The notes under the pieces are model-generated. The model was given only the letters and a program-made list of their open reading frames with translations. It was not told the origin of the DNA and searched no databases. Of a stretch of 64,000 bases of DNA, positions 44,407 to 59,348 are shown piece after piece. Origin of the DNA: Lachnospiraceae bacterium. GTDB taxonomy: Bacteria > Bacillota > Clostridia > Lachnospirales > Lachnospiraceae. The position numbers and the translations under genes were made by a program. Each line of letters starts with the position of its first letter. Positions within the stretch are counted from its first letter, which is position 1. Where the stretch lies: positions 1 through 64,000 of the forward strand of contig JAILLW010000117.1 of the NCBI GenBank assembly GCA_024692955.1. Reading direction: 5' to 3'.

Positions 44407-45552
44407 TCACAACGACTTTTTCAGTCCGTAGTTTTTCAGAAATTCCGGGACAGCTAATTCTTTCGCCTGTACGGAAGCTCTGGCAGGTGCAGTCTGAATT
44501 ATATTGATACGTTTCGGAGGATCCGGCTTTATGGAAACGGAAGGCCGGGTTATGGCGGACTGCTTGCTGCCAACGCATATCGGTTTTGAAGGATGCTCTT
44601 TAAGCCCCGTAGCGATAAGAGTCACGATGGAAGTATTATCGGTGCTTTTTTCTTCATCGGTCACCGTACCCCATATGATCTGTACTTCGGGACCCGCCAG
44701 ATCTTTTACATACTGTATCGCCTCATTGACCTCTTTCATTTTCACACGTCCGGCGGTATTGATCAGGATGTTTTTTGCATTTGTGATATCGGTAGTAAGA
44801 AGAGGGGCTGCGATCGCATCTTTAACGGCCTCAATGAGAGGCTTGGATTCATTGGCAATGCCGATTCCGAGATGACCGATCCCTTTATCTTTGAGTGTTG
44901 TTCGGATGTCATTGAAATCAATATTAACAATCCCTTTGTTGAAAATGATATTCGTAACGCCCTCTATGGTATGTTTCAGTACATTATCCGCCATCAGAAA
45001 CGCATCCTCGAGGTCAAGATCCTTATCTGAGATTTCCAGAAGTCTGTCATTCGGAACAACGAGAAGAGTGTCTACGGCATGTAGAAGATTGTTGAGTCCA
45101 TCAGAAGCCGAAAGTACTCTGGACGGACCTTCAAAAGAAAACGGCAGTGTCACGACTGCGATCGTGAGGATCCCGGCTTCTTTGCAAAGTTTAGCTATGA
45201 TGGGGATTGCTCCGGTACCCGTTCCTCCGCCGAGACCGCAGGTCAATATAACCATATCTGCATCCGACAGCAATTCCTTGATGTCATTTTTGCTTTCTTC
45301 AGCGGCAGCTTCCCCGATCATCGGATCGGCACCCGCTCCGTTTCCTCCGGTCAGTTTGGCGCCGATCTGAAGCGTAGTTTCGGCTTTACATTCCGTTAAA
45401 ACCTGATTATCCGTATTGATCGCGATGTATTTTACATTTCGATTATCGTTTTTGATCATACGATCGACGGCATTATTTCCGGCTCCACCTATTCCGACAA
45501 TGCAGATACTCGGTTTGTTATTTTGTGAATTTACGATTTTTGCTTCTAACAT
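44407..45552 (-). CDS. FtsZ-family GTPase, divergent, outside a dcw cluster
   Basis: ICIVGIGGAGNNAVDRMI; TCGLGGGTGTGAIPIIAKLCKEAG tubulin signature; LPFSFEGPSRVLSASDGLNNLLHAVDTLLVVPNDRLLEI; C-terminal peptide-like AVPEFLKNYGLKKSL. Confidence 0.9.
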   Translation of the reverse strand: MLEAKIVNSQNNKPSICIVGIGGAGNNAVDRMIKNDNRNVKYIAINTDNQVLTECKAETTLQIGAKLTGGNGAGADPMIGEAAAEESKNDIKELLSDADMVILTCGLGGGTGTGAIPIIAKLCKEAGILTIAVVTLPFSFEGPSRVLSASDGLNNLLHAVDTLLVVPNDRLLEISDKDLDLEDAFLMADNVLKHTIEGVTNIIFNKGIVNIDFNDIRTTLKDKGIGHLGIGIANESKPLIEAVKDAIAAPLLTTDITNAKNILINTAGRVKMKEVNEAIQYVKDLAGPEVQIIWGTVTDEEKSTDNTSIVTLIATGLKEHPSKPICVGSKQSAITRPSVSIKPDPPKRINIIQTAPARASVQAKELAVPEFLKNYGLKKSL

Positions 45553-45727: not shown

Positions 45728-46132
45728 ATGAAAATCGGTGAACGGATAAAGGAAATCAGAAGAGTCCGAGGCATGTCAGTGGAAGAAGTTGCAGGGAAAC
45801 TTGGTGTTTCCGTATCTACATTATACCGGTATGAGAATTCTTCGATCAGCAAGATCCCGATCGATGTGATCGACAGGCTGTGCGCTGTGTTCGGCATTAC
45901 GGCAGGTGAGCTGATGGGAAATAATGAACAGGGAAACAGCGAAGAATTGCCATCTTCCTTTGTTAATGCTGAACAGGCCATGGCATTTATGCTGAAAATG
46001 CCGGTTCTTGCAGCTTACGGCGGCTATGATATTGAATCCATGGATGACAGGACGATCGTTGAATTTGCAAATGAGATTCTTTCCCAGCTCAGGCTGGTAA
46101 GCTATAAATATAGGAATCAAGAGCGGCCATGA
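45728..46132 (+). CDS. XRE/Cro-C1 HTH transcriptional regulator
   Basis: MKIGERIKEIRRVRGMSVEEVAGKLGVSVSTLYRYENSSISKIPIDVIDRLCAVFGITAGELMG. Confidence 0.92.
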   Translation: MKIGERIKEIRRVRGMSVEEVAGKLGVSVSTLYRYENSSISKIPIDVIDRLCAVFGITAGELMGNNEQGNSEELPSSFVNAEQAMAFMLKMPVLAAYGGYDIESMDDRTIVEFANEILSQLRLVSYKYRNQERP

Positions 46133-46563
46133 GTAATCTTCGGACAAAAGAAATTATCTCCTTTGCCAAAGGACTTCGAAAGAACTGGGGAAGCGATCCT
46201 ATAAAGATCGCGGAACGTTTTGGCCTAAAGATCGTGTTCCGGCCGGGAAACAGGCTTTCTGCTTATACGATCAAACTGGATAATTATCCGACGATCATCT
46301 CTGTTTCAGGGTGTGATGATCATGTCGGAAGACAAGTTCTTTGTGCGCATGAACTGGGACATGCCCTTCTTCATGACTCCGGAGTCAATCGGTTTGAAGG
46401 GACTTACAGGACGATCGCAGATGATACGGAGTACGAAGCGAATCTCTTTGCGGTCGCGCTTCTTTTTGATGAGAATGATTTCAATATATCTCTGTCGAGC
46501 ATGAGTAATTATGTCTTGAAAGGAATTCTGGATTACAATCTTGGATTTTCATCGTTTACTTGA
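46129..46563 (+). CDS. ImmA/IrrE-family metallo-endopeptidase
   Basis: IISVSGCDDHVGRQVLCAHELGHALLHDSG (HExxH); DDTEYEANLFAVALLF; 4-bp overlap with the XRE gene. Confidence 0.92.
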   Translation: MSNLRTKEIISFAKGLRKNWGSDPIKIAERFGLKIVFRPGNRLSAYTIKLDNYPTIISVSGCDDHVGRQVLCAHELGHALLHDSGVNRFEGTYRTIADDTEYEANLFAVALLFDENDFNISLSSMSNYVLKGILDYNLGFSSFT

Positions 46564-46566
46564 ATA

Positions 46567-46634
46567 AAAGTATAAAAAGGTATAAAATTTTCAAAAAAGT
46601 ATAAAAAGGTATAAAGCAAACAAGAAAGTATAAA
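46567..46634 (+). repeat. Phased direct-repeat array: AAAGTATAAAAAGGTATAAA twice plus a half unit
   Basis: GTATAAA at 46570, 46580, 46599, 46609, 46628 (spacings 10, 19, 10, 19; 29-bp unit). Confidence 0.85.
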
Positions 46635-46649
46635 CCGAGGAAATGATAC

Positions 46650-47720
46650 ATGCAAAATCCGTTTACAACGACTTTCAGTAAAATACCGGACAGTACTTAT
46701 ATCGCAACGGATCAGGCATCTGCCATAGTCGAAAACTTCAGCTTTGATCAGCCTTCGGAATCCGTTTACAAGATAACCGGTGTGCGTGGTTCCGGGAAAA
46801 CGGTTCTGCTTGCAAAGATAGAAGAAGAATTCAGCAGAGAGGAAAGGAAAAAGGAAGGATGGCTGGTGTACAGACTGACTCCTGCCAGAGATATGATCCG
46901 GCAGCTTGCTTCCTATCTTTATAAAGAAAGCTTTATAAAAGAAAAGTTTACGAGCAGAAGTCTTAATTTTTCGGCGAGTGTACTCGGAACAGGAGGTGGA
47001 ATAGGCCTTTCAGCGCAAAAGAATGAGGATCTGACGGATCCGGGAGTAGAGTTGAATGAAATGCTTCGGATATCAACAGAAAAAGGGAAAAAGATCCTGC
47101 TTGGTATTGACGAGGTAGCTAAAACTCCGGATATGATCGTATTCGCTTCAGAATTCGGAATGTGGCTCAGGGCCGGATATTCAATCTACCTGGTATGTAC
47201 AGGGCTTTATGAAAACATTGAGCAGATATACAATGTAAAAAATCTGACCTTTTTCAGACGTGCGACTACCGTAAAGACCGAGCCTTTGAATCAGATCCGA
47301 ATGTCAGAAATGTACCGAAAAAAACTGGGTATAGATGCTGTCATTGCAAGAAAACTTGCCAGTATCACAAAAGGATATCCGTATGCCTTTCAGGAACTTG
47401 GGATACTCTGCTTTTCCAAAGACAATAAAGAATCCTTCGATAGTATTATCGAGGATCTGAAAAGTGAATTGTTTTCATATTCCTATGAAAAGATCTGGGA
47501 AGAACTGTCGGCTGAGGACAGGGCCATGATAAAGATCATCATTGACAAGGAAGAATACAAACGCGAAGAAATCCTTGAACGTATGAATAGGCCGGCAAAT
47601 TATTCCGCATACAGAGACCGTCTTGCAAAGCGCGGCATCATAAAGACAAGACAGGGATATATTTCACTTGCGCTCCCTTTCTTTGGAGACTATGTGAAGG
47701 ATTACTGTTCCGACTGTTGA
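46650..47720 (+). CDS. AAA-type ATPase (STAND/archaeal-ATPase-like) with C-terminal winged-helix-like region
   Basis: VYKITGVRGSGKTVLLAKIEEEF Walker A; KKILLGIDEVAKTP Walker B; C-terminal EELSAEDRAMIKIIIDKEEYKREEILERMNRPANYSAYRDRLAKRGIIKTRQGYISLALPFFGDYV. Confidence 0.85.
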   Translation: MQNPFTTTFSKIPDSTYIATDQASAIVENFSFDQPSESVYKITGVRGSGKTVLLAKIEEEFSREERKKEGWLVYRLTPARDMIRQLASYLYKESFIKEKFTSRSLNFSASVLGTGGGIGLSAQKNEDLTDPGVELNEMLRISTEKGKKILLGIDEVAKTPDMIVFASEFGMWLRAGYSIYLVCTGLYENIEQIYNVKNLTFFRRATTVKTEPLNQIRMSEMYRKKLGIDAVIARKLASITKGYPYAFQELGILCFSKDNKESFDSIIEDLKSELFSYSYEKIWEELSAEDRAMIKIIIDKEEYKREEILERMNRPANYSAYRDRLAKRGIIKTRQGYISLALPFFGDYVKDYCSDC

Positions 47721-47796: not shown

Positions 47797-48162
47797 ATGG
47801 CAGAATACCGGATCGGCGAAATGGAGGCAAAGTTCGCGAATCTCATCTGGGAGCAGGAGCCCATCGGGACTGCGGCACTCATTACTCTTTGTGAAAAGAA
47901 TTTCAACTGGAAACGCACCACGACCTATACCGTTTTGAAGCGGCTCTGCGACCGGGGGCTTTTTAAACTGGAAAATGGCACGGTCACGGCGAACATCGGG
48001 AAAAAGGAGTTTCAGGCCCGCCGCTGCGAGGAATTCGTAAAGACAGCCTTTGACGGATCCCTGCCGGCTCTGGTCCTCGCTTATACTGCGAAGAATAAAT
48101 TAACAAAGAAAGAGATCAAGAAGATCAAGAAGATCCTGAACGCGATCGGGGATTCCGACTGA
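47797..48162 (+). CDS. BlaI/MecI/CopY-family transcriptional regulator
   Basis: RIGEMEAKFANLIWEQEPIGTAALITLCEKNFNWKRTTTYTVLKRLCDRGLFKLENGTVTANI. Confidence 0.88.
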   Translation: MAEYRIGEMEAKFANLIWEQEPIGTAALITLCEKNFNWKRTTTYTVLKRLCDRGLFKLENGTVTANIGKKEFQARRCEEFVKTAFDGSLPALVLAYTAKNKLTKKEIKKIKKILNAIGDSD

Positions 48163-48368: not shown

Positions 48369-51300
48369 ATGAGCACGAAATGGAATCGTATGACAGCCCG
48401 TATCATGGCCGCATTGCTGGCATTACTTCTGGTTGCGGAGGGCGCCCTGCCGTCCTTTGCGGGAGAATTTTCCCCGGAAGGTGCCGGATCGGACACCTAT
48501 GAATCGGAAGGATCCGTACTTTCGGAAGAAACGGAATCTTTTGAGGAAGGAACGGACACGGATCCGGAACGGACGGATGAGGAAGAAGACCTGCCCGGGA
48601 GCCCGGAGAATGAGGATCCGGACGAAGATATCAACGATCCGGATATAAATATAACCGGAGATGACCCGACAGAAGATGCCGGTCTGATCAGGGAAGAAGA
48701 GGCCGATCCCGGGAAAGAGTTCGGGATTTATGAAGATGACGGCGACGATTTCATTCATGCGGAGAACGAAATCATAGAAGAGACCATGACCGAGATCACG
48801 GAGGATCATGCGGAAAGCCTCAAAGACGGAGAGGTCGCATCCGGCAACTGCGGCCTGAAAGATGAGGCAAACAGTTTTCATGAAGAAGATGTCGTATGGT
48901 CCGTAACGGATCTCGGGGAGGCGGGATATCAGCTGACCATCGAACTTGCGGAAGGCGTAGATACGTCCGTTAAGTACACGACCTGTGAGAATTCTTCTTA
49001 TGGGAGTCCCTGGTCTTTCTACAACCAAAAGATCAAAAAGCTGGTGATCGGAGACGGGATCAAAAAGATCGGGAAATATTCCTTTTACAGTATGCAGAAT
49101 CTGACCGAGGTGACCTTCGGAACGGATGTCACCGAATTCGGGAACAATCTGTTTCAGGACTGTAAGAGCCTTCAGACCATTACGCTTCCTGCGGGCCTGA
49201 CTACCGTTGGAAGCTGCATCTTCGAGGGCTGTACCGGGCTTACTTCGATCACGATCCCGGAATCCCTGACCGGAATCTCAAACGGCATGTTCAGCGGCTG
49301 CAGCAAGCTTGCGACCGTAAATATGCATGACGGGATCACTTCCATAGGGGAAACCGCGTTCATCTCCTGCTCCGCACTTACTTCCGTTACGCTCCCTTCC
49401 GGCCTGGAAACGATCGGAAAGCAGGCTTTCCAAAGCAGCGGTCTGACTTCCGTAACGATCCCGGCCGGCGTAACAACGCTTCCGGAGAAGGCGTTCTATT
49501 ATTGCGGAAGCCTTGCTTCTGTGGCATTCGGCGTGGACGAAGAAGAAAACTACGGGATCGAAACCATCGGAGATTATACTTTCTCGAACTGTTCGTTACT
49601 GTCCTCGATCACGCTTCCTTCTTCGGTCACCACGTTAAGAAGCTATGCGTTTGCCTATAACGGAAAACTGACGGAGGTAAACCTCAACGAGGGGCTTCTG
49701 ACCATAGGGGAAGGCGCGTTCAAATCCTTTAAAGCGGCCTCTCTCACGATCCCCTCTACGGTTACGACGCTCAATAATTATGCGTTTTCTTCCAATTCCC
49801 TTCTGACAGAGATCACATTTGCGAAAAACGCGGAAGAAAAATGCGCGCTTACAAAGATCGGCCAGTATGCTTTCGCCGATGCGACAAAGCTTACCGAGAT
49901 CACGCTCCCGGCTTCCGTAACGAATATCGAATATCCAAACATCTTAAATGGCTGCAGTCTGCTTGCGCATATCTATGTGGAAGACGGAAACACGGTCTAC
50001 AGAAACCGGAAGGATGCGCAGAATGTTAAGGACGGAGTGGTTTATAAGATTGACGGTGATACCGAATCTCTTTATATCCGTCCGCCTGCTTTTACCGGCT
50101 GTATTATGCCTTCCGAGGGAACCGTGACGCTGACGAAGGATTACTTCAACGGCACGGATGTTACGGAAGTCGTATTGCCCGCTTCCATAAAAACGATCGA
50201 TTCGAACGCCTTTGACGGCTGTACGAAGCTTGCTTCGATCACGTTCGCGGAAGGCACCGTACTTGAGACCATCGGCAGTTATGCATTCAGGGGATGTACC
50301 GCGCTCGAAGCGATCGATCTTCCGCCCTCACTTAAAACGATCAATTCGTCGGCCTTTGAGGGCTGCAGCCGTCTGGCCGCAGTGACCTTTGAAACGGACG
50401 AAGAAGAGCACTTAAGCCTCACGACCCTCGGTTCCTATGCCTTCTATAAGTGCTCTTCCCTTGGCTCGATCACGCTCCCGGGAACGATCACCCGGATGGA
50501 CGGAAATGTATTTCAGGCATGTACTTCTCTTGCGTCGGTAAATTTCGGCGAAGGCTGGAGCCTTACGATCATAAACGGAAATACCTTCAAAGGCTGTACC
50601 TCCCTGACCGGGATCACGATCCCTGACTCCGTGACGGAGATCAAGGACAACGCCTTTGACGGCTGTACCGGGATCACCTCTCTCAACATCCCCGGAACCG
50701 TGACGAAGATCAACGGCAGCGCGTTTAAAGGCTGCAGCGGGATCACGACCCTGACGCTGAATGACGGGCTTACCGAGATCGGATATTATGCATTCGAGGA
50801 CTGTACCGGGATCACTTCCCTTACCGTTCCGAAGACCGTAACGAAGATCCTGGGCGCGGCATTTAAGGGAAATACTTCACTTGCGACACTGACCTTCGCA
50901 AAGGGCGATGACGGCACCTGCGCACTGACCGACATCACCGGCGGACAATCTTTCGGCGGCACGGCGCTCACGACGGTTACGATCCCCATATCCATTGTTA
51001 ACCTTACCGATTCGACCTTCCAGAACTGTGCCGAATTACGGGCGGTCAATATCGAAGAAGGCGACCCTGCGAATCCCAAGTATTACAGCATAGCCGGGAT
51101 CGTCTACCTGGTGTCGAACAATACGCCGTTTATCAAGCCGGCGAAGGCGGACTTAAGCCAGATGGTCATCCAGGAAGACCCTGAGGGGATCCTCCGAAAA
51201 GATTACTATAAGGGAAATACTTCGATCACGGAAGTTACGATCCCTGCATGGGTCACAAAGATCGAAGCGGAAGCCTTCAAGGGCTGTACCGCGCTCAAAA

Positions 51301-54300
51301 AGGTGAAATACGCAGACGGATGCAAACTTGCGGCGATCGGCGCCAATGCGTTTGAAAACTGCACCTCTCTTGCCTCCTTCACCTGCCCGTCCACCATAAA
51401 GGAAACCGGGATCGGAAGCTATGCCTTCAAGGGCTGCACTTCGCTTGACAGTGTAACCTTATCGAAGAATATGACCAAGATCGCCAGCTATCTGTTCCAG
51501 AACTGCTCTTCCTTAACGAGCGTGAAGATCCCCGCGGGCGTAACGCAGATCATGTCATATGCGTTCTCCGGCTGTACGTCTCTTGCTTCGGTGACCTTTG
51601 AGGGTACGAGTGCCCTTACGGAGATCCAGTGGGATGCCTTCGAAAATACGGCTCTTAAATCGATCACCCTGCCGAAATCGCTGACAGCGCTTGACCGGTC
51701 GGCATTTTACAATTCCGCTTCCCTCGAGAACATCAACATCGAAAGCGGGAACACGGTATATTACAGCGAATCCGGGATCGTCTACAAAAAAGCTGACGGC
51801 TCCGTTTATATCACACCGCCGAAAAACCAGCATAAGGACGATACCAAAACCGAGTTCACCTCCGCGGACGTTCCCGCGAACGCGACCACGGTCACGATCC
51901 CGAAGAATATCCGTGTGATCAAATCCGGCGCGTTTAAGAACAACAGTAAAGTAAAAACCGTAAAATTCGCCAAGGGAAGCAAGCTCACGACGATCGAGGA
52001 ACAGGCTTTCTGCAGGGCGAGCAGTCTCACTACGATCAAACTGCCTTCCGGACTTAAAACGATCGGATACCGGGCATTTTATGACTGCGACGCCATAAAG
52101 AGCATCAAGATCCCCGCCACCGTGACCTCGATCGGGACGGAGGCTTTCTCGAGCTGCGCCAAGCTGTCTTCCGCGACGATCAACTGTCCGAATACGGGGA
52201 ACAAGACCTTCTACAGCTGCGGAAAACTTGCGACCGTAAAACTCGGCTCCGGCGTAAAAACGATCGGCGACAGCTGCTTCTATAATGACAGTTCCCTGAA
52301 GAAACTGACGCTTAACAAGGGTCTTACCTCGATCGGCGAAACAGCTTTCTACTGCTGTACGAGCCTTAAGTCCGTAAGCATTCCCGCTACCGTAACGAGC
52401 GCAGGGATCGGCACATTCAATAGCTGTACGAATCTGGCTTCCGCGACGATCCCCGGATCGCTTACGAGCATTCCGAACAGCATGTTTTACGGCTGCCGTT
52501 CCCTGAAAAAAGCAACGATCCAGAAAGGCGTGACCACGATCGGCCCGTCGGCGTTTTCCACGACCCTGCTTCCTTCCGTCAGCCTGCCGGATACAGTGAA
52601 CTTTATCGGAAATAACGCATTTAAGGATTGTATGGTATTAAAGAGTATCCGGATCCCCGATAAGGTGACCTTTATCGGAACGAGTGTCTTTGAAGGCTGC
52701 GCTTCACTCGAAAAGTTCTCGTGGCCGGCCTCGATCACATCGATCCCTTCCGGAACGTTCCGGTACTGCAGCCGGCTTTCCGAGATCGTTCTGCCGGAGG
52801 GCACGGCTTCGATCAGCGATTATGCCTTCGAAGGCTGCACATCGCTGAAGATCCTGAACGTTCCTTCCACCGTCAGCTCGATCGATGTGCTGGCTTTCAA
52901 ACTGGACAGCGCTCTCGAGGAGATCAATGTGGCAGACGGAAATGCGACCTATCTCTCCGTAGACGGGATCCTTTACCGCCGTACGGCAGCAGGAAAAGAA
53001 TTTGTCTACTGTCCGCTCGCCTGGAACAGCTCCGATACGCTGACCCCTCCGGACGGCCTTAGTTCGATCCCGGCGAAAGCGTATTACGGGAATAAGACGA
53101 TCGTGCACCTCGTGATCCCGGCTACGGTGACTTCGATCGGAGAATCCGCTTTCGAAAACTGCACCTCGCTTCGGACCGTGACCTTTGAGGCAGGCTGCCG
53201 GCTGACTTCGCTTCCGGCATCCGCTTTTTCGGGCTGTATCGACCTTAACACCGTATCGTTCCTCGGAGATACTTCCGTCACCTCCTTCGGTAATTACGCT
53301 TTCTATCAGTGCGCGGACCTTACGGAGATCCGCTTTGAGAATAATTCGACGGATATTGCCGTCGGAAAGGAATGTTTCTATCAGGACTATGCCTTTACGG
53401 GTATTTTTGAAGGGAAAGAGCTCGCTTCACTCGGAGATATCGGTTACGGTACGTTTTATCAGTGCAGATCGATCCGCGACCTCAGGATCGGTGCCTCCTG
53501 CGAAACGATCGGAACAACGAGGAGTGAAGATGCGGATGCCGATGTCTTTGCAGGCTGTGAAAACTTAAGGAGCTTTACGGCGGATGACGGAGGCATATTC
53601 TCCGCAGCCGACGGCGTTCTTTTCCGGGAAGACTGGGATGACGGAGAATTCTCCGTAACAGGGCCCACCCTCTTTAAATATCCTTTCCAAAAAGCGGATG
53701 AGGAATATACGATCCCGGAAGGGACGGTGGCTGTTGCGAATTACGCGTTTGCAAACTGCAAAGAGATCGTATCCGTTACGCCGTCCGAAGAACTTGAGAT
53801 CATCTATAAGCGGGGATTTTATCAATCATCCGTTGAGGAATTTGACTTTGAAACCGCGGGATCAAGTCTCCGCGTGATCGATGTCGCGGCCTTCCGCGGA
53901 TGCAGTTCGCTGAAGAAAGCAGAGTTGGGAGAAAGCTCGATCAGGGTCCTTCAGGGAAGCGCTTTTCGAAACTGCTCCCGGATGCAGGAAGTGATCCTTC
54001 CCGAAGATCAGATGACGGCGATCGGATCCTATGCATTCTACGGCTGCAGCGCGATGAAACATATGAATCTCGATGATACGGTCACCACGATCGGGGACTA
54101 TGCCTTCAACAGTTGCGGAAGCTGGCTGGATGTCAGGATCCCGCAGGGACTTACGGGATCGATCCCGAAATATGCCTATGCCTACTGTTACAAGCTGAAG
54201 ACGTTGGAATTCCCGGCAGGCGTCACCTCGCTCGGCGATTACGCGTTCTATTACTGTAGCGGTCTGGAAACCGTAACCATTCCGGCCACGCTCAAATCGA

Positions 54301-57300
54301 TCGGGGAAAGATGCTTCTATGACTGCTATGGGATGACGGAACTTACTTTTGCGGACCGGAGCGAGGGAGAAAACCTTTATATCGATGACTGGGCTTTCCG
54401 CTACTGCTCCAAACTCACGCAGGTGAAACTCCCTGAGAAACTGACCTCGATCGGAAGCGAGGTTTTCGGGGACTGTTCGGAACTAAAGCGGGTGGAGCTT
54501 CCCTCGACCCTTGCTTCGGTCGCGAATAATACCTATATAACGATAAACGACAGCAAGATTTACGGGAGTTATATGTTCCTGAATGATTCGAAACTGCGCC
54601 AGTTGATCGTCCGGAATCCGGCGCTGAACCTGAAGGATAACGCCTTCTACAGCACGAATTCCTCATCGGGTACGCAGACGGTCTATGTTTACAGCAGTAA
54701 GTATGAGGATCCCGAAGCTGCGGATCCCATCGAAACCGTGATATACCGTTATTGCGGGAACAAGTCCTCAGGTAAATATGCGCTCACCTTTGTGGAGCTG
54801 GAGGATCTTGATGATGAAACTGCGGATCCCGGATATGAAAATCCGGATCCGGTCAACCCGGACGATCCTTCGAGCTATCCGAAGAGCGGTGTGGTCAAAG
54901 CTGCCGACAATGCTGAGATCTGTTGGGCTTATGATGAGATTACGAAGACCGTCACGATCTCGGGAACGGGCGCCATGCCGGACCGGTCGACCGGCTGGGT
55001 AAATGTAGACGGAGTGCTGACAAATATGGAAGCGCAGACGATCCCGTGGAAATACTATTACGGAAAGGTCGCGGAGCATCTTACGATCGGAGAAGGAATC
55101 ACCGGGATCGGCAGTTATTGCTTTAACAATATGACGGCTCTAAAAGATGTTTCCCTTCCGTCTACGCTCGCATCGATCGGGAATTATGCTTTTTACTGTT
55201 GTTCATCCCTGACATCCCTTGTGATGCCGGCCGGCTTAAGATCGATCGGGAGTGACGCATTCTGCGGCTGCACCTTACTTACATCCTTCACCATGAATGA
55301 AGGACTTGAAACGGTAGCTTATGATGCTTTCTATCAGACGCGGATCACGGAGCTTCATCTTCCTTCGACGCTGACCGCGATCAGCCCCGATGCGCTGAAC
55401 TATTGCTTTTTAACCGAATCGGAGGGAGGGGACTACATCTCCGCGCTGGAGACCGTGACGGTGGCGGAAGGAAACCGGTATTACCGGGTAGAAGACAATG
55501 TCCTTTATCGGATCGAGAACGGAAAAGAGACCCAGATCTGGGGAAGGCTCGTCCGGAAAATGGAGATTGACGGAGAAGAAACCGATGTGCTCTATATCCC
55601 CGCTTCCTATCAGATCGCTTATGAAGACAGTAATCTGGATCGTTCCTACCGGTACGCGAAGGTCACCTGCATCATCGTGGACGAGGATAATCCTGTTTAC
55701 AGTACGGATGAGGATCACACCGCGCTCTACAGCAAAGACGGAAACATCCTTTATATGGTCCCGTATGATTATGAAGGGGAATTTACGGTTCGGGAAGGGA
55801 CCAGGATCATCGGCGAAAATGCCATGAGGAGCCGAAGCGGTATCACGAAAGTGAGCTTCCCGGATTCCGTGACCGAGATCCGGGACAGCGCGATGTATTA
55901 CTGCACTTCGCTCCGGGAAGTCAAATTCAGCGCTTCCCTTTGGAAGATCGGTTATCAGGCATTCTATAACTGCAGCTCCTTAAGGAAAGTGACGCTCCCC
56001 GAAGGGATCGCAGAGATCGGGGATTCCGCGTTTTCAACCTGTTATGCTTTAAGATCGGTGAATCTCCCCGCAACGCTTACCTCCCTCGGAAACTATGCGT
56101 TCGCATACTGCGATGAGCTTCGTTCGATCGAGATCCCGGGGAGCATCGGAACGATCCGGGAAGACTGTTTCTACAGTGATGACAGTCTGGATGACATCAG
56201 GATCGGGGAAGGGATCACCGAGATCGGGGAATGGGCCTTCGGCTATTGTACTTCCCTCGAGCGGATCACGCTTCCGGAGAGCCTGCGTTCCATCCGGAAC
56301 AATGCCTTTTCCTACTGCAGCAGCCTTGCGCGTGTCGAGATCCCTGCGAGCGTGGATGATATCTATTATTCGACTTCGACTTCCGGGAGCACGAACTATT
56401 ATTATTCTCCTTTCGAATGCTGTGCCTATGAACTGACCTTCTACGGCGAGAGAGGCTGCTATGCGCAGAGCTGGGTGGAGAATAATGATATCAAGTATCA
56501 ATCCGGCACATCATTATACATACATAATGCATCCTTCGTGACCGGTGTTCCGGCGAAATACCTGATCACCTATGTCCTTGATCCGGATGAAGGAGAGCAG
56601 AATCATATCGCGAATCCGGCTTCGTTCCGCGCGGAAGGAGAGGTGATCACCATTTATCCCGCAACGAAGGAAGCTTCAACGGAAGCACCGGACGGCTATG
56701 AATTCGGAGGATGGTATACCGATAAGGAGCTGACCGAGCGGGTAGAGAAGATCATTCCTTCCGCAGACCGTCACAGCTTTACGCTCTATCCGGAATGGCT
56801 TCGGAATAACCGGGTTTCGATCGAGACCGAAGAAGGAGGTGTCATCGTGCTCGTGCCGAACGGAAGGAGCCTTTCCGATGTGGGCTATCAGCCGGTTTCG
56901 GAAGACGGGAAAAGATCCGCAGGTCTTGTCTTTGCAGATAATGAAGATCTGGCCTTCTCCCTGAACGCACCCGTTTATGAGGATCTTCAGCTGAAAGCGG
57001 TATTTGTATCCGCGGACGAAGCACTTACAAAGGCGCCGTTCTCCTCAGTCGAAAGCGGCGAGGTACCCGTCGGGATCGTGCTCTCGCTTACAAGCGATAC
57101 GCCGGATGCGCATATCTACTACACGATTAACGGCGATGAGCCGCTTGACGCGGAAGGAGAGGCGGCCGAAGATGCACTCCGTTATAAAGACCGTATCCTC
57201 CTTACGGAAGATGTCTTTGACGGCGGAGATACCGTGACCCTGAAGGCCATGGCGGTAAAGAAGGGTGCCGTAAGCGCGATGTCCGTATACGAATACCGTC

Positions 57301-59348
57301 TGATGGATGAAGACGGGTACTGGGGAAGCGTTCTTCCCATGGACCGGTCGGAATACGCGGAGGCCGAAAAGACAGCAGGCGGCTTATGGATCGCGGGTCT
57401 TCGGGAGTCCTATCCTTATACCGGAGCGGCGGTGAAGCCGGGTATCCGGGTATATGACGGAAAGGCTCTCCTCAAGGAAGGCAAAGATTATACCGTAAGC
57501 TTTAAGAACAATGTGAACGCAACACCGGAAAACGCCCCGGAGTCCAAACTGCCTCAGCTTACGGTAACCGGAAAGAATAATTACAAAGATTCCATGAAAG
57601 CGACATTCCGGATCGGACAAAAGTCCGTTTCCTCGCTTTCCTATACGGCGAAATGCTATCTCACCTGGACAGAGACGATCGACGGGTCCTATTACTATTT
57701 CGAGGAACCGGTATTCGTGAAGCTTAACCCAGGAAAGAAGGCACAGAAGCCCGTTCCGGCACTGAATGATAACGGAAAAGCACTGAAAGCCGGAAAAGAC
57801 TTTACCGTCCGGTATTATACCGCTGTATTTAAGAAAGAGAACGACCGGCTTCCCGAGATGGAGGATGATATTACGACGAACTGGGGAAGATATACGCCGG
57901 TTGCTGCTCCGAAGGATCCGGGCATATACTGCGCGGCCGTGACCGGAAAAGGAAACTATACGGGTACGAGGTATTACCGTTTCCATATCGAAAAGGATCT
58001 GATCCCGATCTCAAAGGCGCAGATCACCGGATTCGTAAAGAGTTATGAATATGACGACGGAGATGCGATCTATCAGAACAAGATGGTGCTGAAACGCGGA
58101 AAAGACACTCTGGTATCCGGAACGGATTATTCCTTAAGCTACAGCAACAACCGTGAAGTCGGAACAGCCACGCTGATCATCTACGGAAGAGGCAAATACA
58201 CCGGGATGGTGAAAAAGACCTATAAGATCACCGGACTGCCCTTTAAGAAAGCGAAACTCTACGAGTTCCAGAAATCGCTCTCCTATACCGGAAAGCCTCT
58301 CTTCCAGACCGCCGCGTTCTTTACCTATCCGGTAAAGACGGACACCGGGATCGCCTACGTGGATCTCGTCGAGGGCGCTGACTACAAGGTGTCGTACAGC
58401 AGGAACATCGAAAAAGGAAAGGCCACCGTTACCTATACGGGACTGGGGCTTCTGTACGGTTCGGTGAAAAAGACCTTCACGATCAAGGGACTTGACATCA
58501 ATAAGGCATCAAAGCAGAAACGCCCGACCGTAAAGGCCGTGATCGAAGGAGGAAATAATGTTCCTTACGCAAAGGGGGGCGTAAAGCCTGCCGTCAGCGT
58601 AACTTTCCGGGAACAGCCCCTTGCGGAAGGCAGGGATTATACAGTAAAATACAGGAACAACCTGAAGCTTGCGGAAGCATCGGGGAAAAACACCGATCCC
58701 GCGGTGATCATCACCGGAAAAGGGAACTTCGCCGGGAGCATTACGATCCCGTTCTCGATCGTAGAAAGCGACATCGGCAGCCTTTCGATCAACGCTTCCG
58801 ACGTGGTATACGGCACGAGGGAAAATGCGGCCGCGGCGAAAGTGAAGATCACCGACACGACCGGAAAGGCTCTGATCGCGGGCACGGATTATGAGAAAGC
58901 CTTTGAATATGCCTTCGAGGAGCCCGGAAGCGTTGTGAACGCGCAGGGGACCCCGGCAGGAAATAAGGCCGCGGGAGATGCTTTTGATCCTTCGACCGAG
59001 TATCCGGCAGCAGGGAGCGTGATCCGCGTGACCGTGACCGGAAAGGGCAACTACCGGGAAACGATCAGTGCAGTCTACCGGGTGACGACGGCGGACATTT
59101 CGAAAGCCGTGATCAAACTGAAGGCCGGAAAGACCTTTACCTATACGGGCAGCGGGATCGTACCTTCGAAAGAGGATCTTTCCGTTAAGGTCGGAGGAAA
59201 AGAACTTACCGATACGGATTATGAGATCATTTCCGTAACGAACAACCTGTCGAAAGGAAAAGCGATCCTGACGATCCGCGGGACCGGCCCGAACTACGGC
59301 GGAATAAAAACGCAGACCTTCGCGATCAACGCGAAATCCATGAAATAG
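48369..59348 (+). CDS. Giant (3659 aa) secreted BspA-like leucine-rich-repeat protein with InlB B-repeat-like, chitobiase C-terminal-like and MBG/Ig-like C-terminal modules
   Basis: Signal peptide MSTKWNRMTARIMAALLALLLVAEGALPSFAGE; acidic linker; dozens of LRR_5 repeats (FxGCTSLxSITIPxxVTxIGxxAF); DTPDAHIYYTINGDEPLDAEG; repeated KDYTVSFKNN...VTGKGNYTG modules. RBS AGGAGG. Confidence 0.95.
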   Translation: MSTKWNRMTARIMAALLALLLVAEGALPSFAGEFSPEGAGSDTYESEGSVLSEETESFEEGTDTDPERTDEEEDLPGSPENEDPDEDINDPDINITGDDPTEDAGLIREEEADPGKEFGIYEDDGDDFIHAENEIIEETMTEITEDHAESLKDGEVASGNCGLKDEANSFHEEDVVWSVTDLGEAGYQLTIELAEGVDTSVKYTTCENSSYGSPWSFYNQKIKKLVIGDGIKKIGKYSFYSMQNLTEVTFGTDVTEFGNNLFQDCKSLQTITLPAGLTTVGSCIFEGCTGLTSITIPESLTGISNGMFSGCSKLATVNMHDGITSIGETAFISCSALTSVTLPSGLETIGKQAFQSSGLTSVTIPAGVTTLPEKAFYYCGSLASVAFGVDEEENYGIETIGDYTFSNCSLLSSITLPSSVTTLRSYAFAYNGKLTEVNLNEGLLTIGEGAFKSFKAASLTIPSTVTTLNNYAFSSNSLLTEITFAKNAEEKCALTKIGQYAFADATKLTEITLPASVTNIEYPNILNGCSLLAHIYVEDGNTVYRNRKDAQNVKDGVVYKIDGDTESLYIRPPAFTGCIMPSEGTVTLTKDYFNGTDVTEVVLPASIKTIDSNAFDGCTKLASITFAEGTVLETIGSYAFRGCTALEAIDLPPSLKTINSSAFEGCSRLAAVTFETDEEEHLSLTTLGSYAFYKCSSLGSITLPGTITRMDGNVFQACTSLASVNFGEGWSLTIINGNTFKGCTSLTGITIPDSVTEIKDNAFDGCTGITSLNIPGTVTKINGSAFKGCSGITTLTLNDGLTEIGYYAFEDCTGITSLTVPKTVTKILGAAFKGNTSLATLTFAKGDDGTCALTDITGGQSFGGTALTTVTIPISIVNLTDSTFQNCAELRAVNIEEGDPANPKYYSIAGIVYLVSNNTPFIKPAKADLSQMVIQEDPEGILRKDYYKGNTSITEVTIPAWVTKIEAEAFKGCTALKKVKYADGCKLAAIGANAFENCTSLASFTCPSTIKETGIGSYAFKGCTSLDSVTLSKNMTKIASYLFQNCSSLTSVKIPAGVTQIMSYAFSGCTSLASVTFEGTSALTEIQWDAFENTALKSITLPKSLTALDRSAFYNSASLENINIESGNTVYYSESGIVYKKADGSVYITPPKNQHKDDTKTEFTSADVPANATTVTIPKNIRVIKSGAFKNNSKVKTVKFAKGSKLTTIEEQAFCRASSLTTIKLPSGLKTIGYRAFYDCDAIKSIKIPATVTSIGTEAFSSCAKLSSATINCPNTGNKTFYSCGKLATVKLGSGVKTIGDSCFYNDSSLKKLTLNKGLTSIGETAFYCCTSLKSVSIPATVTSAGIGTFNSCTNLASATIPGSLTSIPNSMFYGCRSLKKATIQKGVTTIGPSAFSTTLLPSVSLPDTVNFIGNNAFKDCMVLKSIRIPDKVTFIGTSVFEGCASLEKFSWPASITSIPSGTFRYCSRLSEIVLPEGTASISDYAFEGCTSLKILNVPSTVSSIDVLAFKLDSALEEINVADGNATYLSVDGILYRRTAAGKEFVYCPLAWNSSDTLTPPDGLSSIPAKAYYGNKTIVHLVIPATVTSIGESAFENCTSLRTVTFEAGCRLTSLPASAFSGCIDLNTVSFLGDTSVTSFGNYAFYQCADLTEIRFENNSTDIAVGKECFYQDYAFTGIFEGKELASLGDIGYGTFYQCRSIRDLRIGASCETIGTTRSEDADADVFAGCENLRSFTADDGGIFSAADGVLFREDWDDGEFSVTGPTLFKYPFQKADEEYTIPEGTVAVANYAFANCKEIVSVTPSEELEIIYKRGFYQSSVEEFDFETAGSSLRVIDVAAFRGCSSLKKAELGESSIRVLQGSAFRNCSRMQEVILPEDQMTAIGSYAFYGCSAMKHMNLDDTVTTIGDYAFNSCGSWLDVRIPQGLTGSIPKYAYAYCYKLKTLEFPAGVTSLGDYAFYYCSGLETVTIPATLKSIGERCFYDCYGMTELTFADRSEGENLYIDDWAFRYCSKLTQVKLPEKLTSIGSEVFGDCSELKRVELPSTLASVANNTYITINDSKIYGSYMFLNDSKLRQLIVRNPALNLKDNAFYSTNSSSGTQTVYVYSSKYEDPEAADPIETVIYRYCGNKSSGKYALTFVELEDLDDETADPGYENPDPVNPDDPSSYPKSGVVKAADNAEICWAYDEITKTVTISGTGAMPDRSTGWVNVDGVLTNMEAQTIPWKYYYGKVAEHLTIGEGITGIGSYCFNNMTALKDVSLPSTLASIGNYAFYCCSSLTSLVMPAGLRSIGSDAFCGCTLLTSFTMNEGLETVAYDAFYQTRITELHLPSTLTAISPDALNYCFLTESEGGDYISALETVTVAEGNRYYRVEDNVLYRIENGKETQIWGRLVRKMEIDGEETDVLYIPASYQIAYEDSNLDRSYRYAKVTCIIVDEDNPVYSTDEDHTALYSKDGNILYMVPYDYEGEFTVREGTRIIGENAMRSRSGITKVSFPDSVTEIRDSAMYYCTSLREVKFSASLWKIGYQAFYNCSSLRKVTLPEGIAEIGDSAFSTCYALRSVNLPATLTSLGNYAFAYCDELRSIEIPGSIGTIREDCFYSDDSLDDIRIGEGITEIGEWAFGYCTSLERITLPESLRSIRNNAFSYCSSLARVEIPASVDDIYYSTSTSGSTNYYYSPFECCAYELTFYGERGCYAQSWVENNDIKYQSGTSLYIHNASFVTGVPAKYLITYVLDPDEGEQNHIANPASFRAEGEVITIYPATKEASTEAPDGYEFGGWYTDKELTERVEKIIPSADRHSFTLYPEWLRNNRVSIETEEGGVIVLVPNGRSLSDVGYQPVSEDGKRSAGLVFADNEDLAFSLNAPVYEDLQLKAVFVSADEALTKAPFSSVESGEVPVGIVLSLTSDTPDAHIYYTINGDEPLDAEGEAAEDALRYKDRILLTEDVFDGGDTVTLKAMAVKKGAVSAMSVYEYRLMDEDGYWGSVLPMDRSEYAEAEKTAGGLWIAGLRESYPYTGAAVKPGIRVYDGKALLKEGKDYTVSFKNNVNATPENAPESKLPQLTVTGKNNYKDSMKATFRIGQKSVSSLSYTAKCYLTWTETIDGSYYYFEEPVFVKLNPGKKAQKPVPALNDNGKALKAGKDFTVRYYTAVFKKENDRLPEMEDDITTNWGRYTPVAAPKDPGIYCAAVTGKGNYTGTRYYRFHIEKDLIPISKAQITGFVKSYEYDDGDAIYQNKMVLKRGKDTLVSGTDYSLSYSNNREVGTATLIIYGRGKYTGMVKKTYKITGLPFKKAKLYEFQKSLSYTGKPLFQTAAFFTYPVKTDTGIAYVDLVEGADYKVSYSRNIEKGKATVTYTGLGLLYGSVKKTFTIKGLDINKASKQKRPTVKAVIEGGNNVPYAKGGVKPAVSVTFREQPLAEGRDYTVKYRNNLKLAEASGKNTDPAVIITGKGNFAGSITIPFSIVESDIGSLSINASDVVYGTRENAAAAKVKITDTTGKALIAGTDYEKAFEYAFEEPGSVVNAQGTPAGNKAAGDAFDPSTEYPAAGSVIRVTVTGKGNYRETISAVYRVTTADISKAVIKLKAGKTFTYTGSGIVPSKEDLSVKVGGKELTDTDYEIISVTNNLSKGKAILTIRGTGPNYGGIKTQTFAINAKSMK

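Follow-up and report, generated by a model that had tools for sequence, protein, structure and literature searches.

Which protein reads the short direct repeats in the leader of an AAA+ ATPase gene of a Lachnospiraceae bacterium, and to what end? In the window, namely the whole stretch of 64,000 nucleotides analysed here, 86 bp separate the immA stop codon (46561-46563) from the start codon of the ATPase gene (ATG, 46650), and this gap carries five copies of GTATAAA on the + strand (46570, 46580, 46599, 46609 and 46628) at an exact spacing of 10/19/10/19 bp. A sequence-only reading of the window had described this layout and proposed either a cooperative operator or a replication-iteron-like element, bound by the XRE protein encoded upstream or by the C-terminal winged-helix-like region of the ATPase itself.

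A regular array precedes a predicted Orc1/Cdc6-like ATPase gene

Checking of the sequence confirmed the five copies and their spacing, as well as the arrangement in two 29-bp units plus a third half unit (46567-46634), the two full units being 83% identical to each other. Sequence reading and the chain search resolved the array into 10-bp repeats on the + strand, i.e. repeat 1 (AAAGTATAAA, 46567-46576) followed after 10 bp by repeat 2 (AAGGTATAAA, 46577-46586), after 19 bp by repeat 3 (AAAGTATAAA, 46596-46605) and after another 10 bp by repeat 4 (AAGGTATAAA, 46606-46615), while the half unit, repeat 5 (AAAGTATAAA, 46625-46634), lies 19 bp after repeat 4 and ends before the ribosome-binding site GAGG read at 46637-46640 (+). 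GTATAAA was found eight times in the whole 64-kb window versus a mean of 4.6 by chance, with the five array copies falling within 65 bp. A search of the whole 3.17-Mb genome found the exact pair GTATAAANNNGTATAAA nowhere but in the window array, and the surroundings of the nearest one-mismatch copy (one site, G000:C71) had no array.

The gene behind the array (46650-47720, +) encodes a protein of 356 aa, the likely array-binding protein as judged from the sequence comparisons below. Its open reading frame, AlphaFold model (pLDDT 88.8, pTM 0.85) and Foldseek matches indicated an AAA+ domain followed by a C-terminal winged helix, the same architecture as that of Orc1/Cdc6. The Walker A motif GVRGSGKT occupies residues 44-51 (46779-46802, +), and its lysine K50 as well as the Walker B aspartate D154 were each invariant in 169/169 family members. 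By DSSP on the model, the winged helix spans residues 288-342 (47511-47675, +) and is composed of helices 288-296 and 305-311, the recognition helix 315-328 and the wing 331-340, which includes Q335 (47652-47654, +). The best Foldseek matches among solved structures were the Pyrococcus ATPase 2qen, archaeal Cdc6/Orc1 (1fnn, 2qby and 2v1u, the latter two bound to origin DNA), SSO1545 (2fna), eukaryotic ORC and STAND proteins. Pfam matches were weak and all below the cut-offs (NB-ARC, 22.8 bits versus 23.5; ATPase_2, 23 versus 33.2; AAA_14), so that the protein was not assigned to the STAND/NB-ARC proteins. No significant match to Orc1/Cdc6 families was found in Pfam or NCBIfam, with one paralogue touching TIGR02928 at E = 0.065, and Pfam, PHROGs and NCBIfam gave no match to Rep-type replication initiators. 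The window protein is best described as a predicted Orc1/Cdc6-like AAA+ ATPase with a C-terminal winged helix. A known anti-phage defence system was also considered and rejected, as the PADLOC models gave only short and weak P-loop or HTH matches.

The array geometry is conserved across the ATPase family while its letters change

Homologues were collected from relatives, the genome_contigs collection (80 loci) and 397 same-family genomes, of which 62 had an ATPase homologue at E <= 1e-20; part of the loci are metagenome assemblies, and start codons were assigned by rule. This yielded 169 distinct full-length proteins, or 156 once those at least 85% identical were removed. Hosts were mostly Lachnospiraceae, with Treponema, a Bacilli MAG and Streptococcus sobrinus as well, and a phylum-wide sample gave a match in only 4 of 399 genomes, all of the same family. 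The chain search detected an array before the start codon in 151 of the 156 non-redundant homologues, typically with 6-8 copies, and none in the remaining five, including the S. sobrinus copy. In the 110 bp before the start codon, recurrent 6-mers gave 740, 570, 1122, 630 and 390 pairs at lags of 10, 19, 29, 39 and 58 bp, respectively, versus about 11, 11, 11, 7 and 6 in dinucleotide-preserving shuffles, and 83% of the 156 upstream regions were individually significant (p <= 0.01). No lag peaks appeared upstream of 289 neighbouring genes, which are less AT-rich (62% versus 75%), a difference corrected by the shuffles. The regularity noticed in the window is therefore far beyond chance, because the same spacing recurs, in other letters, in 151/156 homologues.

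The letters themselves amounted to 96 distinct 10-base consensus words, for example AAAGTATAAA, CAGTTATAAC, AACCAGTAAA, GAATTATGAA, ANGTTGTGGA and AAGTCACAAG, and that of one relative (L028) was CCAGTAAAA. Repeats inside one array were on average 82% identical, but those belonging to proteins of 35-45% identity agreed at just 60%. When the same gap was compared in relatives, as the sequence-only reading had suggested, the array was neither absent nor randomly diverged: its geometry was kept and its letters had changed in step with the protein. The same rule was then applied to 40 held-out homologues, which shared less than 85% identity with one another and with the training set, and gave an array in 40/40, one of them (L278) weak with three copies. 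Remote plasmid homologues (21-36% identity; Pseudobutyrivibrio, Lactobacillus and some Actinobacteria) carried short repeats at 9-10 bp, such as TTTCACC in an Arthrobacter homologue, and the upstream regions of several Actinobacterial ones had no clear repeat. No description of such arrays was found in the open-access papers searched.

The window array belongs to the ATPase and not to the neighbouring XRE-ImmA pair. That it could be the operator of this pair is suggested by their position directly upstream of it in the window; however, a window-like XRE or ImmA was found near none (0/113) of the other array-bearing loci with long flanks, the closest XRE-ImmA pair found (55%/44% identical) had neither array nor ATPase, and the array co-varies with the ATPase winged helix (see below). 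Such an operator is extremely improbable, and the absence at the 113 loci together with the array-less nearest relative led us to reject XRE or ImmA as the binder, leaving that half of the earlier proposal unsupported. As for the other neighbours, an FtsZ gene (44407-45552, -; 381 aa, Tubulin/FtsZ and FtsZ_C domains) lies divergent to the XRE-ImmA pair, and a BlaI-type repressor gene (47797-48162) directly precedes a gene (48369-59348, +) for a predicted secreted protein of 3,659 aa, largely of BspA-like leucine-rich repeats by eye.

The first repeat pair lies in the predicted promoter of the ATPase gene

A promoter scan, which is weak evidence alone, gave a promoter-like site on the + strand of the window, with a -35 element TTGAAT (46560-46565) overlapping the immA stop codon and, 17 bp further, a -10 element TAAAAT (46583-46588) made by the end of repeat 2. 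Family-wide, 53/144 arrays had a TTGACA-like hexamer (at least 4/6 matches) at one exact offset before the first pair, versus 0-16 at other offsets. The family profile reads TAAAAT at positions 16-21 of the first pair, and the terminal T of the -10 was present in 71/144 first pairs versus 31/331 later pairs. Thus, the first pair fills the spacer between the two elements and also provides the -10 hexamer, although both elements were recognized in exact register by a simple rule in only 69/144 arrays. As in an autoregulatory operator, the repeats overlap the promoter of the ATPase's own gene, in fixed register with the first pair. The TAAA-rich core common to the repeats is partly a reflection of the -10 box.

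Given that the predicted transcription start precedes the later repeats, which extend to the ribosome-binding site, these might be recognized in the leader RNA instead of in DNA, for example as a translational operator with repeated protein sites. But the spacings of 10, 19 and 29 bp correspond to turns of the DNA helix, the first pair is situated upstream of the transcription start, the RNA is predicted to lack structure (z = 0.45) and has no Rfam match, and it is a DNA-binding domain with which the repeats co-vary, all of which make an RNA operator very unlikely. A structured leader RNA or riboswitch was rejected on the same unstructured prediction and lack of an Rfam match.

Repeat letters co-vary with the winged helix

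Mutual information was determined between each repeat position and each protein column, with the ATPase-domain columns serving as a phylogeny-matched background and the repeat phase fitted without protein data. The top link connected wing residue 335 with base 3 of the 10-bp repeat, which is position 2 when numbering starts at 0 (z = 8.1). Among all protein segments, the mean signal was highest in residues 313-328, the recognition-helix segment. Y or F at residue 335 went with G/C in 55/55 cases and R, Q, H, K or W with A in 71/73, so that the identity of the residue predicted the base in 126/128 cases of the sample; the scope of this wing rule is one repeat base only. On a tree built from the ATPase domain only, the residue class and the base class changed about 19 times each, and 17 of 19 non-overlapping independent contrasts matched with none reversed (sign test on the 17, p = 1.5e-5). 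For the held-out homologues, the rule predicted the base correctly in 30 of the 32 decidable cases (Fisher p = 4e-6), eight being undecidable. The window protein itself has Q335, with A at repeat position 2 in three of its five repeats and G in two.

The repeats thus adjoin the gene and appear protein-specific, as judged by co-variation, in the manner of Orc1/Cdc6-type sites. Of the candidate binders originally named, the C-terminal winged helix of the ATPase is the putative one that these comparisons strongly support, since the array follows the gene through many genomes and its letters co-vary with both wing and recognition helix.

Array and gene travel together as a cassette

The array and the gene form a cassette of ~1.2 kb that was found in unrelated contexts, mostly in Lachnospiraceae but also in Treponema and on some plasmids. 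Cassettes of 86-95% DNA identity lie in different places, where the similarity begins near the -35 or the outer array edge, the left cassette edge in the window being its -35 element, and ends a few bases at most from the stop codon; the flanks are unrelated. Copies are chromosomal and often several per genome, up to eight. Among 72,556 plasmid records 18 had a homologue, and phage copies were rare. There was no conserved partner gene, the commonest neighbours being glycan-operon genes in a few loci. In the genomes checked (that of the window, G007, G002, G372 and G057), exact repeat pairs occurred only at the own cassette. Paralogues of one genome usually have different words, yet no more than shuffled genomes predict; selection for differing words within one genome was considered, but sharing was 12% versus 11.5% when permuted, so we make no claim of selection for word independence.

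In one Butyrivibrio-like genome, the cassette and a neighbouring multi-copy repeat separate two genes (by eye, an aminotransferase-like and a sugar-transferase-like one) that directly adjoin each other in several relatives. This empty site, together with the sharp ends of the same cassette in unrelated places, would suit a transposition or recombination site through which the cassette moves, the ATPase serving for targeting like TnsC, IstB or MuB. No transposase or nuclease domain, however, accompanies it, neither terminal inverted or other terminal repeats nor target duplications were seen at cassettes, and repeats on one side only and the promoter register would be left unexplained, so we hold this reading to be quite unlikely.

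The movement of the cassette between genomes, the Orc1/Cdc6-like fold and the AT-rich direct repeats, which adjoin a gene of initiator-like type as they do in archaeal ori-cdc6 pairs (PMC3936714), may also recall an iteron-type replication or maintenance site, i.e. the origin-like or partition-like array of a small mobile element that is now chromosomal. Against it, the cassette contains a single gene with no further replication gene, its copies are chromosomal and often several per genome, very few are on plasmids or phages, and the register of the repeats is fixed relative to a promoter. No Rep of a known family on a plasmid was found, a phage or plasmid origin was rejected for the rarity of homologues there, and nothing spoke for the replication-iteron-like element of the sequence-only reading beyond the fold of the ATPase. 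We regard such a site as unlikely.

Several loci showed further details at the cassette edges. The C-terminus of the window ImmA (46129-46563, +) departs from its nearest relative (L327) exactly at the cassette start, and the immA stop codon shares bases with the ATPase -35, which looks as though the cassette had inserted at the end of immA. In one Butyrivibrio-like genome (G1078; L226 2640-3050 and other contigs), a repeat of ~100-180 bp present in roughly ten places adjoins the cassette and may be a MITE-like element. At L115, the stretch immediately preceding the array (about GTGATAGTGGGTTGACA) is found again immediately behind the gene, there with a second TTGACA, possibly the remnant of a duplication or insertion. 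Genome G178 has one cassette on two contigs in 99.7% identical copies (L142 and L143), which share at least 700 bp upstream and diverge about 27 bp after the stop codon. At the Butyrivibrio-like loci L076, L078, L079, L081, L085 and L226, the gene immediately following the cassette is often a sugar-transferase-like member of a surface-glycan operon, and the plasmid copies L196 and L198 are near glycosyltransferases.

Discussion

Computation established a conserved geometry, a promoter register, protein-DNA co-variation, and an array and gene travelling as a unit. On these sequence comparisons, we consider the array, with a probability of roughly 0.8, to be the cis-acting site of the ATPase encoded right after it, whose Orc1/Cdc6-like winged helix would bind there and control its own promoter. 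One monomer's winged helix would read one 10-bp repeat, with the recognition helix reading the repeat core and the wing reading the base at the core's upstream side. Monomers would be arranged head to tail with one for each turn of the helix, forming pairs at 29-bp intervals; this recurrence of pairs suggests a cooperative, ATP-dependent assembly. Since the first pair lies between -35 and -10, bound protein should control its own transcription, most simply by repression, as the first pair would mask both elements, although activation is possible. Physical binding, oligomerization, and repression rather than activation are what we infer. The cooperative operator proposed at the outset fits the overlap with the ATPase's own promoter.

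Several known systems resemble this one in part. Plasmid iteron-type Rep proteins bind short direct repeats at about helical spacing upstream of their own gene, which they autoregulate, whereas the window system has no Rep fold and no plasmid, comprises one gene, and has its repeats inside the -35/-10 region. Across bacteria, DnaA boxes hardly vary, unlike the repeats of the window family, in which each member has its own word. DnaA is, as proposed for the ATPase, an AAA+ DNA-binding protein that regulates its own gene (PMC8203912). Archaeal Orc1/Cdc6 with its origin recognition boxes shares with the window family an AAA+ ATPase with a winged helix and repeats beside the gene, and in haloarchaeal ori-cdc6 pairs the origins carry variant ORBs and each specifically requires the cdc6 gene next to it (PMC3936714). 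By contrast, the window family is bacterial, has up to eight members per genome and no sign of a replication function, and keeps its repeats 10 bp apart in a strict 10/19 frame inside its own promoter, the likeness being one of fold only, with sequence similarity below detection. Orc1-2 of Saccharolobus, a non-initiator Orc1 relative, regulates DNA-damage genes with ATP binding and hydrolysis as a switch (PMC9738581), and so provides a case of an AAA+ winged-helix protein of Orc1 type that regulates transcription, the role proposed for the window ATPase; however, it has a regulon, while the window-type exact repeat pair was found only at its own cassette in the genomes checked. The STAND-type ATPases 2qen and SSO1545 (2fna), to which the mycobacterial IniR (PMC5760070) can be added, include two of the closest folds (2qen and 2fna), and no array was described for any of the three in the open-access papers searched.

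As nearly every relative has its own, differently spelled but identically spaced array, which changes with the DNA-reading domain, the gene appears to carry a private address label. We tentatively suggest, at somewhat less than even odds, that these are widespread, undescribed one-gene bacterial cassettes in which an initiator-like ATPase has the array of its own promoter as sole address, with fixed geometry and a word that changes with the winged helix, and which arrive between genes and have no other genomic target, i.e. that they are self-addressed and possibly selfish.

About a hundred operator words in one rigid frame, for one ATPase family, would be unexpected to a specialist, and constitute a natural experiment in which a winged helix and its DNA site change together. 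The one-residue rule, namely that a wing aromatic goes with G/C and a wing Arg, Gln or His with A, is testable by a single swap. The family also supplies many candidate regulator-operator pairs and is relevant to the question of how proteins like Orc1/Cdc6 came to work in replication in one lineage and in regulation in another. With the likely binding site of the ATPase now known, its purpose becomes testable.
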